This document shows, piece after piece, positions 29,263 through 34,296 of a stretch of DNA of 34,777 nt. The notes beneath the pieces are model-generated. The model did no database searches. It saw only the letters and a program-made list of their open reading frames with translations, and was not told where the DNA came from. Numbering within the stretch: position 1 is the first letter of the stretch; the number at the start of each line of letters is the position of its first letter. The position numbers and the translations under genes are program-made. Source of the stretch: an uncultured Ilumatobacter sp. (lineage in GTDB: Bacteria; Actinomycetota; Acidimicrobiia; Acidimicrobiales; Ilumatobacteraceae); contig CALAHA010000266.1 in NCBI GenBank assembly GCA_937891565.1, forward strand, positions 1 through 34,777, read 5' to 3'.

Positions 29263-30564
29263 ATGACCGCACGAACAGTCGCCCCAGCCACCGGAAAGCT
29301 CGGTGTCCTCACGCCCGGCATGGGTGCCGTGGCATCCACCTTTATCGCAGGCGTGATCGCCGCACGGGATGGCATCTCGCCACCCATTGGCTCCGTGTCG
29401 CAGATGGCCCATATTCGTCTCGGCACCAAGAACGAGAATCGGAACCCGCTGATTAAGGAGTTCGTTCCGCTCGCTGACCTCGGCGACATCGTCTTTGGCG
29501 GTTGGGACCCGATCTCCCCGAACGCCATGGAAGCAGCCAAGACCGCCGGCGTGCTGCAGGGCAATGATCTCGATGCCATCTCAGCCGAGATGGAAGGCAT
29601 CGTGCCGATGTCAGCCGTCTTCGACCAGCGCTGGGTGAGTCGCCTCGAAGGTATCCGCGTCAAGGACATCGCCAACAAGTGGGATCAGGCCGAAGCGCTG
29701 ATCGCCGACATCGCCCGATTCAAGCAGGAGAACGGCTGCGACCGTGTCGTCATGGTCTGGTGTGGCTCGACCGAGGCCTACCAAGAGCCTTCGGAAGTAC
29801 ATGCAACCGTCGCATCGTTCGAGCAGGGTCTGCGTGACAACGATGCGAACATCTCACCGTCGCAAATCTATTGCTACGCCGCACTCCAGAGCGACGTCCC
29901 CTACGCCAACGGTGCTCCAAACCTGACAACCGACCTCGACTGCATCGTCGAACTGTCGAAGAAGAACGGTGTGCCGATCGCCGGCAAAGACTTCAAGACG
30001 GGCCAGACCCTCATCAAGACGATGCTCGCACCGGGCTTCAAGGCCCGCATGCTTGGCGTGCGCGGTTGGTTTTCGACGAACATCCTCGGCAACCGCGACG
30101 GCGAAGTGCTCGACGACCCGGAGAATTTCAAGTCGAAAGAAGTCTCCAAGCTCGGTGTGCTCGACGGCATTCTGCAGCCCGAGGTCTACCCCGACCTCTA
30201 CGGCAACATCGACCACGTCGTCCGCATCAACTACTACCCACCCCGCGGCGACAACAAAGAGGGTTGGGACAACATCGACATCTTCGGCTGGCTCGGCTAC
30301 CCAATGCAGATCAAGGTCGACTTCCTCTGCCGTGACTCGATCCTCGCCGCGCCAATCGTGCTCGACCTCGCACTCTTCATGGACCTTGCCCATCGCGCCG
30401 GCGAGAGCGGAGTGCAGGAATGGCTGAGTTTTTACCTCAAGGCGCCACAGGCTGCCGGGGATTCGCCAGCCGAGGCCGATCTGTTCATTCAGCAGACCAA
30501 GCTGAAGAACACCCTCCGCGAATGGATGGGCGAGCTTCCCGTCACCCACTCCGAAGCGGGTTGA
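29263..30564 (+). CDS. ino1: myo-inositol-1-phosphate synthase
   Basis: GVLTPGMGAVASTFIAGVIAARDG, ADLGDIVFGGWDPISPNAMEAAKTAGVL, PIAGKDFKTGQTLIKTMLAPGFKARMLGVRGWFSTNILGNRDG. Confidence 0.93.
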   Translation: MTARTVAPATGKLGVLTPGMGAVASTFIAGVIAARDGISPPIGSVSQMAHIRLGTKNENRNPLIKEFVPLADLGDIVFGGWDPISPNAMEAAKTAGVLQGNDLDAISAEMEGIVPMSAVFDQRWVSRLEGIRVKDIANKWDQAEALIADIARFKQENGCDRVVMVWCGSTEAYQEPSEVHATVASFEQGLRDNDANISPSQIYCYAALQSDVPYANGAPNLTTDLDCIVELSKKNGVPIAGKDFKTGQTLIKTMLAPGFKARMLGVRGWFSTNILGNRDGEVLDDPENFKSKEVSKLGVLDGILQPEVYPDLYGNIDHVVRINYYPPRGDNKEGWDNIDIFGWLGYPMQIKVDFLCRDSILAAPIVLDLALFMDLAHRAGESGVQEWLSFYLKAPQAAGDSPAEADLFIQQTKLKNTLREWMGELPVTHSEAG

Positions 30565-30855: not shown

Positions 30856-31710
30856 ATGGCTGCGATCTTGATGAACGGAAATGCACTGCGGGACGAGATC
30901 ATTGCTGGGCTGCGCTTGACGGTCGATGCTGCAGGCTCGCCTGCCATCTGCCTCGCCACGGTGCTCGTCGGCACAGACGGCCCCTCGCAGCGTTACGTCG
31001 GCAGCAAGCACAAGAAGGCCGTCGAGGCTGGCTTTAAGGCGCGTCACGTCGACCTTGCTGAGACCGCCACGCAAGATGAAGTCGAAGCCGTAGTGCGCGA
31101 ACTCGCAGCAGACGACTCGGTGCATGGCATTCTCGTCCAGCTGCCCCTGCCCGATGGCCTGAATCCTGAGCCCGTACTCGACCTCATCCCCGCAGACAAA
31201 GACGTCGACGGACTGACCGAGAGGTCGATGGGCCGCCTGGTCCGTGGCCGCCCGGGCCTCGTCGGATGTACGCCGTTGGGCGTTATGCGGCTGCTCGAGA
31301 AGTACGAGGTGCCAACTTCCGGTGCTCGCGCGGTCGTCATTGGTCGGTCGACGCTCGTCGGGCTGCCGTTGTCCCTGCTGCTCAACCGCAAGGGCGTCGA
31401 CGCCACGGTGACGATGGCGCACTCGCGAACCGCCGACATGGCAGCCGTGGTGCGTGAAGCTGACATCGTCATTGGCGCAGCTGGCCAAGCCCGCATGATC
31501 ACCGCCGAGATGATCAAGCCAGGAGCGGCTGTCATCGATGTCGGTGTCTCGCGAACAGAGGCAGGGATCGTCGGCGACGTTGACCCGGGCGTTGCCGAGG
31601 TGGCGCGGTGGTTGACGCCGATGCCGGGTGGAACCGGCCCGATGACGATTGCCTGTCTCATGGAGAACACCCTGACCGCAGCACGTTTGCAGGGCGCCTT
31701 TCCTGCCTGA
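30856..31710 (+). CDS. folD: methylenetetrahydrofolate dehydrogenase/cyclohydrolase
   Basis: VGTDGPSQRYVGSKHKKAVEAGF, GILVQLPLPDGLN, PADKDVDGLTERSMGRL, CTPLGVMRLLEKY, VVIGRSTLVGLPLSLLL, KPGAAVIDVGVSR and VDPGVAEVARWLTPMPGGTGPMTIACLMENT. Confidence 0.97.
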   Translation: MAAILMNGNALRDEIIAGLRLTVDAAGSPAICLATVLVGTDGPSQRYVGSKHKKAVEAGFKARHVDLAETATQDEVEAVVRELAADDSVHGILVQLPLPDGLNPEPVLDLIPADKDVDGLTERSMGRLVRGRPGLVGCTPLGVMRLLEKYEVPTSGARAVVIGRSTLVGLPLSLLLNRKGVDATVTMAHSRTADMAAVVREADIVIGAAGQARMITAEMIKPGAAVIDVGVSRTEAGIVGDVDPGVAEVARWLTPMPGGTGPMTIACLMENTLTAARLQGAFPA

Positions 31711-31740
31711 TTGCTCAACGACCGATTTATACGGTACGCT
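31711..31740 (+). promoter_or_regulatory. candidate promoter for ilvBN leader
   Basis: TTGCTC (31711-31716), 18-bp spacer, TACGCT (31735-31740, TANNNT form). Would place the TSS near the leader-peptide ATG. Confidence 0.35.
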
Positions 31741-31749
31741 GATCCGATT

Positions 31750-31800
31750 ATGGAACTCACGAGCGTGCTGCGCATTGCCCTCGTAGTACTTATTTGGTAG
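31750..31800 (+). CDS. ilvBN leader peptide MELTSVLRIALVVLIW
   Basis: 16-aa ORF with 9 Leu/Ile/Val residues. Followed by a hairpin region and an intrinsic terminator before ilvB. Confidence 0.75.
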   Translation: MELTSVLRIALVVLIW

Positions 31801-31829
31801 CGCGCCCAGCTTTTGCTGCGCGTGCTCCT

Positions 31830-31861
31830 CGACCTCCCAGCCGGGAGGTCGTTTGCTTTTT
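31830..31861 (+). terminator. intrinsic terminator of the ilvBN attenuator
   Basis: CGACCTCCC-AGCC-GGGAGGTCG stem followed by TTTGCTTTTT. Located about 50 bp before the ilvB ATG. Confidence 0.8.
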
Positions 31862-31913
31862 CACCATCAATCGCCTTCCATCACATTCCCTCCTGAACTG
31901 AAAGACCAGTCAC

Positions 31914-33731
31914 ATGGCTGATTCACCAGCAACACCTGAACGGATCACCGGCGCACAGGCCTTGATCCGAGCGCTCGAGCACGAGAACGTCGACCTGATC
32001 TTCGGCTACCCAGGTGGCTGCATCCTTCCGGCGTACGACCCGCTGATGGACAGCCCGATCCGCCACGTGCTCGTACGCCACGAACAGGGTGCTGGTCATG
32101 CCGCCGAGGGATACGCACACGTGTCCGGCAAGCCCGGCGTCGCCATGGTCACGTCGGGGCCGGCAGCGACCAACCTCGTCACGCCGCTGATGGACGCCTT
32201 TATGGACTCCATTCCAATGGTTGCGATCACCGGTCAGGTTCCAACAGCCGCTATCGGTACCGACGCATTCCAGGAGTGCGACACCGTTGGCATCACGCGG
32301 TCGTGCACCAAGCACAACGAGTTGGTCATGTCGGCCGACGAGATCCCGATGGCGATCCGTCAGGCCTTCCACATTGCCACCACGGGTCGCCCGGGCCCCA
32401 CGCTCGTTGACATCCCGAAGGATGCACTGACGAACGAGATGGAGTGGTACTGGCCGACGGACGAAGAGGTCCAGGCCTCGCTGCCTGGCTATCGACCGAA
32501 CACCAAGGGCCATCCCCGGATGATCAAGGAAGCCGCCAAGCTGATCCTCGCGTCCGAGCGGCCGATCGTCTACGCCGGTGGCGGTATCTTGAAGGCGCGT
32601 GCGGCTGAAGCGTTGCGCGAACTCGTCGAGTTGATCGATGCGCACGTCGTGACCACCCTGATGGCGCGCGGTGCATTCCCTGACGAACACCCACTTTGTC
32701 TGGGTATGCCGGGCATGCACGGCAACGCAACGGCGATCACCGCGATGCAGCAGTCTGATCTACTGATCACACTTGGCGCACGTTTCGACGACCGCATCAC
32801 CGGCAAGGTCGACGCGTTCGCACCCGAGGCAAAAATCATCCACGTCGACATCGACCCAGCCGAACAGGGCAAGGTCCGTCGTCCCGACGTGCCGATCGTT
32901 GGTGATGCCAACTACGTGATCCTCGAGATCATCCGCGAGATCAAAGAGCTTTTGCAGGGCGGCACGCGCCAGGCCGACACCAGCGCCTGGAAGAGCAAGA
33001 TCTCGGGGTGGCAAGAGCAGTTCCCGATGGCCTACGAGCCGTCCGAGCCCGGCGGGCCGCTCAAGCCGCAGTACTGCATTGAGCAACTCAACAAGTACGC
33101 GCCGAAAGGCACAATCGTTGCGTCGGGTGTTGGCCAGCACCAGATGTACACGTCGCAGTACTGGAAGTTCAACGACCCCTACACGTGGGTCAACTCAGGT
33201 GGCCTCGGCACGATGGGCTTCTCGATCCCGGCAGCGATTGGTGCAAAGGCAGCAATGCCTGACCGCACCGTCTGGGCCGTTGACGGTGACGGTTGTTTCC
33301 AGATGACGGCAACCGAACTGGTCACGGCGACACTCGAAAAGCTTCCGATTAAGGTCGCACTGTTGAACAACAGCTTCCTCGGCATGGTCCGGCAGTGGCA
33401 GGAGATGTTCTACGACGAGCGCTATTCCTCGGTGTTCCTCGACAGCGCGAACGTCCCGAACTTCGTGATGATGGCCGAGTCGATGGGATGCGTCGGCATT
33501 CTTGTCGAGTCGCCCGAAGAAGTCGGCCCAGCCATCCAGAGAGCAAACTCGATCAATGACCGCACCGTCGTTGTCGAGTTCCGTACCGATGCCACCGAGG
33601 GCGTGTTCCCAATGGTGCCGCCTGGCACGAGCAACAGCGATCTCATCCTGCACCCGACACAGAGCGATCCGACTCGGGCGCTCCAGCCCGAACCGAAGCC
33701 GATCGACACCAAGTTGAAGGACGTCCACTGA
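31914..33731 (+). CDS. ilvB: acetolactate synthase large subunit
   Basis: TGAQALIRALEHENVDLIFGYPGGCILPAYD, RHEQGAGHAAEGYAHVSGKPGVAMVTSGPAATNLVTPL, GLGTMGFSIPAAIGAKAAMPDRTVWAVDGDGCFQMTATEL. Confidence 0.97.
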   Translation: MADSPATPERITGAQALIRALEHENVDLIFGYPGGCILPAYDPLMDSPIRHVLVRHEQGAGHAAEGYAHVSGKPGVAMVTSGPAATNLVTPLMDAFMDSIPMVAITGQVPTAAIGTDAFQECDTVGITRSCTKHNELVMSADEIPMAIRQAFHIATTGRPGPTLVDIPKDALTNEMEWYWPTDEEVQASLPGYRPNTKGHPRMIKEAAKLILASERPIVYAGGGILKARAAEALRELVELIDAHVVTTLMARGAFPDEHPLCLGMPGMHGNATAITAMQQSDLLITLGARFDDRITGKVDAFAPEAKIIHVDIDPAEQGKVRRPDVPIVGDANYVILEIIREIKELLQGGTRQADTSAWKSKISGWQEQFPMAYEPSEPGGPLKPQYCIEQLNKYAPKGTIVASGVGQHQMYTSQYWKFNDPYTWVNSGGLGTMGFSIPAAIGAKAAMPDRTVWAVDGDGCFQMTATELVTATLEKLPIKVALLNNSFLGMVRQWQEMFYDERYSSVFLDSANVPNFVMMAESMGCVGILVESPEEVGPAIQRANSINDRTVVVEFRTDATEGVFPMVPPGTSNSDLILHPTQSDPTRALQPEPKPIDTKLKDVH

Positions 33732-33732
33732 G

Positions 33733-34296
33733 ATGGCTCAAACCAGCGATGTCTCCGGTGCGCGCAGCGCCAACACCTCCTCCGCCAACATGAACCATCA
33801 CATTCTGTCCGTCCTTGTTCAGAACCGACCTGGAGTCCTTGCTCGTGTGGCCGGTCTGTTCGCACGGCGTGGCTACAACATCTTCAGTCTGGCTGTGGCG
33901 CCGGCCGAAGAAGAAGGTCGCAGCCGGATCACGATCGTTGTCGACCTCGACTCGGCACCGCTCGAACAGATCACGAAACAGCTCTTCAAACTGATCGACG
34001 TGATCAAAATCTCCGAACTCGACCCGTCGCGCAGCGTCGAGCGCGAGCTGCTCCTCGCCACCGTCAAGGCGTCCGGCCCGAAACTGGCTGACGTGTCGAC
34101 CTTGGCCGAGATTTTCGAAGGCAAGATCATCGCTGTTGTTGAGGACTTCGTCACCGTCAGCCTGGAAGGCCATCCTGACAAGCTGGACGATTTTGAGGAT
34201 TTGCTCGGCCGACATGGCATTGTTGAGCTGCAGCGGACAGGTCGCGTGGCTCTACCCAAGCTCGACCGAAGCTCACGTCATCGCTCCGCTCATTGA
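33733..34296 (+). CDS. ilvN: acetolactate synthase small subunit
   Basis: NHHILSVLVQNRPGVLARVAGLFARRGYNIFSLAVAPAEEEGRSRITIVV (ACT domain). Directly follows ilvB. Confidence 0.97.
   Translation: MAQTSDVSGARSANTSSANMNHHILSVLVQNRPGVLARVAGLFARRGYNIFSLAVAPAEEEGRSRITIVVDLDSAPLEQITKQLFKLIDVIKISELDPSRSVERELLLATVKASGPKLADVSTLAEIFEGKIIAVVEDFVTVSLEGHPDKLDDFEDLLGRHGIVELQRTGRVALPKLDRSSRHRSAH

Follow-up and report, generated by a model that had tools for sequence, protein, structure and literature searches.

How are the branched-chain amino acid (BCAA) genes ilvB and ilvN controlled in the 34,777-nt stretch of Ilumatobacter DNA analysed here, hereafter called the window? The regulated gene, ilvB, encodes the large subunit of acetolactate synthase and occupies positions 31914–33731 of the forward strand (NCBIfam TIGR00118, 746 bits against a cut-off of 538). 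It is followed on the same strand by the small-subunit gene ilvN/ilvH at 33733–34296 (NCBIfam PRK11895 and TIGR00119, both above cut-off). By inspection, a folD-like gene lies upstream at 30856–31710, with 39 nt between its end and the leader ORF described below, and an inositol-phosphate-synthase-like ORF at 29263–30564 lies ahead of it. The source genome comprises 446 contigs and is 81% complete; judged by ilvB, its closest named relatives belong to Ilumatobacter and other Acidimicrobiia. The initial annotation proposed a BCAA leader-peptide attenuator upstream of ilvBN. The control codons, their conservation, the promoter geometry and the gene-matched codons of sister elements support this proposal, and we put the probability of ribosome-mediated transcription attenuation by stalling at BCAA codons at about 0.85. 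The evidence is comparative throughout, and the relatives form a non-independent sample.

Leader, hairpin and terminator upstream of ilvBN

Where does the transcript start? A predicted -35 element, TTGCTC, lies at 31711–31716 of the forward strand, and a predicted extended -10 element, CGGTACGCT, at 31732–31740, for which relatives have TGGCA[C/G]ACT; a spacing of 9 nt separates it from the leader ATG. In 83% of ilvB leaders, a -10 score of at least 7 of 9 coincides with a TTG -35 at a distance of 16–18 nt, as compared to 0% of shuffled sequences, while a -10 score of at least 8 of 9 is reached by 70% and 1%, respectively. The spacing between the -10 element and the leader ATG or GTG has a mode of 7 nt and a range of 5–11 nt. 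The transcript is predicted to start at most a few bases from the leader ATG, which would make the ORF leaderless. This conserved geometry bears out the earlier suggestion of a near-leaderless leader ORF, with a start site that is itself predicted. If the transcript starts at about the ATG, the sequence upstream of the ORF cannot supply an antiterminator arm.

The leader ORF, MELTSVLRIALVVLIW*, runs from the ATG at 31750 to the TAG at 31798–31800 on the forward strand, and contains 16 codons before the stop (asterisk). The 17 codons first reported, with the stop counted, are thereby confirmed, as is the content of 9 Leu, Ile or Val residues among 16. As a signal, however, this count is largely incidental, since the relatives keep only about the last five codons. 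Among 93 ilvB leader sequences, BCAA codons account for 68, 92, 99, 100 and 99% at codons -6 to -2, and for at most 31% at codon -7 and further upstream. The conserved peptide core, (L)VV(L/V)(I/T)x*, thus occupies the last few codons, and is represented by the final LVVLI in the window. The corresponding candidate control codons, CTC GTA GTA CTT ATT (Leu-Val-Val-Leu-Ile; 31780–31794, forward strand), are assigned from codon conservation and GTA bias, and include the rare Val codon GTA twice. In the ilvB leaders, GTA accounts for 164 of the 199 Val codons at positions -5 to -3 (82%), but for only 1 of 56 at positions -2/-1, and for 2% of the Val codons inside the ilvB genes. The constant position of this rare codon would fit a ribosome that stalls with GUA in its A site, which would set its leading edge against the base of the hairpin that follows. 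The putative leader thus has the form expected of an attenuator, a short ORF whose control codons match the operon's end product.

Two hairpins follow the control codons. The segment 31745–31870, whose folding had been suggested as a check, proves to be stable, with a folding energy of -55.0 kcal/mol, as compared to a mean of -36.0 for shuffled sequences (z -5.5; 0 of 200 shuffles equally stable). A hairpin after the stop codon had been placed at 31801–31822, with the arms CGCGCCCAGC-TTTT-GCTGCGCG. Its position holds, but its size does not: the minimum-free-energy hairpin, hereafter hairpin A, is larger, spans 31796–31828 of the forward strand, overlaps the stop codon, and has covarying pairs in helices 1–2. 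The terminator hairpin T begins 1 nt after A, at 31830–31851 of the same strand, with the arms CGACCTCCC-AGCC-GGGAGGTCG, nine perfect pairs, a 4-nt loop, and two-sided changes in seven of the nine pairs. The U-rich tract TTTGCTTTTTC follows at 31852–31862, also on the forward strand, and is kept in relatives. The intrinsic terminator with its T-rich tract is therefore present where the initial annotation put it, and lies between the leader and the structural gene, as in attenuators.

How widely is this arrangement kept? The ilvB upstream regions of relatives were aligned on the leader stop codon and then folded. One layout, a BCAA-ending leader followed by A and T, is common to all 95 relatives in which a terminator could be recognised. 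In these 95 ilvB leaders, the base of A lies at -4 to +4 nt from the leader stop (mode +2), and A ends 0–5 nt from T in every case. Over the gene families compared, the gap is 0–6 nt, with no bases in common. A strong hairpin abuts T at 92% of the BCAA-stop terminators, as compared to 27% of the remaining terminator-like sites of these loci. A covariance model built from 48 sequences finds matches in 268 of the 298 genomes of the order, and in 217 of the 226 better-quality ones. The element also occurs in part of the remaining phylum, upstream of ilvB wherever checked. Among 93 model-fitted matches, two-sided changes occur in 12 of the 15 pairs, with 171 such cells against 49 in shuffled alignments; model fitting favours the structure, and a plain MAFFT alignment already gives 9 of 15. 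The short ORF core, A and T are thus all conserved in the relatives, with covariation, as the initial annotation would lead one to expect. Because the element is conserved across the order and covaries, a chance origin is excluded. The preceding gene does end nearby, at 31710, so that T could in principle be its ordinary terminator, accompanied by a chance ORF. However, a conserved promoter and leader separate the gene end from the terminator, and the element is kept before ilvB across the order, which makes this explanation barely credible.

Codons matched to the regulated gene

Are the leader codons the sensor? Weaker covariance-model matches pointed to cimA (citramalate synthase, TIGR00977), leuA (TIGR00970) and leuB (3-isopropylmalate dehydrogenase). 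A stop–hairpin–terminator detector that is blind to amino acids was run on the cimA, leuA and trpE regions of relatives, with samples of 30 loci each for cimA and leuA, mostly near the window's family. The cimA leaders that it returned end in IIIIR*, IIIIL*, IIIIP* and similar sequences, and the leuA leaders in LLLLM*, LLLT* and similar ones, while it found no credible Trp version upstream of trpE in 30 loci. We also counted runs of any one residue in at least three of the last five codons before a stop, up to 350 nt upstream. Ile runs occur at 20 of the 30 cimA loci, with no Leu or Val runs; Leu runs occur at 27 of the 30 leuA loci, the source genome included, with no Ile or Val runs. The Leu and Ile runs are never exchanged between leuA and cimA. 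The codon specificity rests on the blind detector and this any-residue count, because the other Leu- and Ile-run counts were selected on those residues. The source genome itself carries a leuA version (SFLLLM*, TAG, hairpin, terminator) on contig 308 (L262, G000:C308), where its stop codon lies near position 1344 on the reverse strand, and no Ile-run leader was found upstream of cimA in the window's own genus.

While the hairpin sequences differ among the gene families, the layout is constant, and the A–T contact is conserved in all three of ilvB, cimA and leuA. Gene-matched codon identity within the same layout gives the strongest support to the peptide codons as the putative sensor. It also bears on the possibility that the element acts without translation, as a riboswitch or a protein-binding site, with incidental BCAA codons. 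GTAGTA is indeed conserved as nucleotides, and the A loop is often C-rich or contains CATA. Nevertheless, the codons become Ile in cimA and Leu in leuA under the same layout and with different hairpin sequences, substitutions remain within Val, Leu and Ile codons, and the element is without an Rfam family; we consider such a mode of action very improbable. Comparison thus establishes the parts, their conservation, the pathway-matched codons and the A–T layout. The re-coded versions constitute a natural experiment in telling the sensor, the codons, apart from the actuator, the two abutting hairpins.

Several further features were observed in these leaders. Codon -2 is ATT in 20 of 20 cimA leaders and CTT in 23 of 27 leuA leaders, while the codons upstream favour ATC and CTC; this synonymous bias is positional and resembles the GTA bias in the ilvB leaders. 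Val/Ile-coded versions occur upstream of leuB in other families of the order (L191, L196–L198 and L206). The loops of the A hairpins in the ilvB and leuA leaders are G-poor and often contain CCACATA or CCCATA, for which a protein site, a pause signal and the avoidance of mispairing are candidate explanations.

How hairpin A could act on the terminator

We propose the following mechanism. Transcription would begin at or near the leader ATG, and a ribosome would load directly on the leaderless 16-codon ORF behind the polymerase. When charged Val tRNA (above all the one that reads the rare GUA), Leu tRNA or Ile tRNA is in short supply, the ribosome would stall at codons -6 to -2, with its leading edge at about the stop codon, leaving hairpin A free to form. 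Folded first and jammed at the base of T, A would prevent T from closing to the U tract, and the polymerase would enter ilvBN. With an ample supply of these amino acids, the ribosome would instead reach the stop codon and cover the 5′ arm of A; A would not form, T would close, and transcription would end. We infer the stalling and the direction of regulation, by which the switch very probably shuts the BCAA genes off when Val, Leu and Ile are plentiful.

In the computed folding, masking a ribosome footprint at the stop codon lowers P(A) from 0.92 to 0.0, while a footprint over the control codons leaves P(A) at 0.92. As in trp-type attenuation, A is thus disrupted by a ribosome at the stop but not by one at the control codons, and we therefore assign A as the starved-state hairpin and a candidate functional antiterminator. 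P(T), on the other hand, is 0.91–0.98 at equilibrium for every ribosome position, and A, unlike a trp-type antiterminator, shares no terminator arm. Since the equilibrium P(T) is independent of the ribosome, abutment, and not base competition, would have to act.

Do A, T and the leader nevertheless compete for bases? The initial annotation suggested that an early-leader segment, GAGCGTGC (31761–31768), could pair with GCGTGCTC (31820–31827) to form alternative folds. Both segments are present, and the early-leader pairing is strong in the window (-13.7) and in its nearest relative, L004 (-21.0), yet it is not conserved. Pairing of the early leader with the 5′ or 3′ arm of A (1:2, 1:3) was rejected, with mean duplex energies of -9.71 against -9.76 in the cross-locus control and -10.97 against -10.78 in the shuffled one. 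A pseudoknot between the A loop and the 3′ arm of T was likewise rejected, as it equals the cross-locus control for ilvB, cimA and leuA alike. In 95 ilvB leaders, no conserved upstream partner for either T arm was found, and the pairing is weaker than in shuffled sequences. With neither a conserved T-arm competitor nor a conserved early-leader pairing, the suggested mutually exclusive, base-sharing folds are not upheld. Judged from sequence, the element is a leader-peptide attenuator in every feature tested, while it fails the classical base-sharing test.

A subtler form of sharing would involve only a few nucleotides at the A/T boundary, exchanged by branch migration as in the "fast attenuator" of Corynebacterium glutamicum; this would replace the abutment but not the attenuation. 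A and T do abut, and the boundary GCC common to the C. glutamicum antiterminator and terminator has mutational support (PMC11857589). In nascent RNA without the 3′ arm of T, a minority of leaders (7 of 81 for ilvB, 1 of 19 for cimA, and 3 of 25 for leuA) have the three basal T bases mostly paired, as such sharing would have it. In the others (74 of 81, 18 of 19 and 22 of 25, respectively) these bases are mostly free, so that a boundary-trinucleotide overlap is not the general pattern. With about 90% of the leaders lacking such sharing, and A–T gaps of 2–5 nt common, we regard this form of competition as unlikely, while giving it real weight.

In the trp leader, the 1:2 hairpin pauses the polymerase until the ribosome arrives. 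Hairpin A could similarly cause a pause, keeping RNA polymerase in place until a ribosome comes, with T regulated otherwise, and would then have no part in an abutment step. A is strong, it forms during synthesis of the 5′ arm of T, and a ribosome that reaches the stop codon melts it. However, pausing alone would result in constitutive termination and leaves the failure of T upon ribosome stalling unexplained, and we find this role for A rather improbable.

How, then, could A antagonise T by abutment? A terminator must close down to its U tract inside the polymerase exit channel, and a hairpin 0–6 nt upstream of T would presumably have to share this space. That A acts on T in this manner, sharing no bases with it, is a reading to which we give slightly less than even odds. 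The complete proposal is an attenuator family re-coded for each gene (Val/Leu/Ile for ilvB, Leu for leuA, Ile for cimA, and Val/Ile for leuB), in which A blocks T purely by abutment at the RNA exit channel, and it is offered tentatively.

Relation to known attenuators

The purpose of the element is ordinary, its actuator is less so, and as an RNA family with re-coded versions it is undescribed. No Rfam 15 family matches it at the gathering score, and E ≤ 10 yields only a chance trypanosome snoRNA; the Rfam search for ilvB leader families suggested at the outset thus returned no match. The literature searched contained no description of the element in Acidimicrobiia. Ribosome-mediated control of BCAA synthesis would thereby extend to an entire class of Actinomycetota, most of it uncultured, through an RNA family absent from Rfam.

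In the trp, leu and ilvGMEDA attenuators of Escherichia coli, the antiterminator shares a terminator arm, and the leader ORF has a Shine-Dalgarno site. Those leader peptides carry control codons as here, and the leu leader also has a rare-codon run. In contrast, no arm is shared in the present element, and its ORF is predicted to be leaderless.

The closest known systems, both experimentally supported, are the ilvB attenuators of Mycobacterium tuberculosis and C. glutamicum. In M. tuberculosis, which belongs to another class of the same phylum, experiments on ilvB1 established the LVVI codons, the role of GUA, the terminated leader RNA, and the loss of induction in an AAAA mutant (PMC13236596). 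The ilvB1NC leader resembles ours in its LVVI control codons, its GUA regulatory codon and the intrinsic terminator before ilvB, and its antiterminator is blocked once a ribosome is at the stop codon, as in our model (PMC13236596). The leader is given as 166 nt long, and its terminator and antiterminator are described as mutually exclusive folds (PMC13236596), whereas A and T here are neighbours that share no bases. The C. glutamicum ilvBNC (ilvB-II) leader is transcribed from 1 nt off the start codon, uses Leu CUU and Val GUA control codons, and has adjacent antiterminator and terminator bases (PMC11857589, PMC10272879). The present element matches this type, with a leader ORF that is leaderless by its predicted start and a GUA control codon. 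The C. glutamicum hairpins overlap by the GCC trinucleotide, and an anti-antiterminator extends over the leader ORF (PMC11857589, PMC10272879), whereas here the hairpins are 0–6 nt apart, no conserved anti-antiterminator was found, and A lies wholly after the control codons. The ilvB-OMG motif and the ppGpp riboswitch leaders (as discussed in PMC10272879) are also RNAs upstream of ilvB; together with the T-box they are Rfam 15 families, none of which the window matches.

Candidate ilvB leaders of Streptomyces, Mycobacterium and Corynebacterium (PMC1262725) share with ours the BCAA run, the terminator, the ilvB operon, and the lack of an identified antiterminator. Their ORF overlaps the terminator, unlike here, and their mode of action was left open by those authors. 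In Streptomyces coelicolor, mutations of the ilvB leader codons were without effect, which counts against codon sensing (reported in PMC1262725). Leader codons and a terminator with no visible antiterminator have made actinobacterial ilvB a puzzle since 2005, for which abutment is a simple candidate answer. To leuA, the same study assigned a different element, the LEU pseudoknot (PMC1262725).
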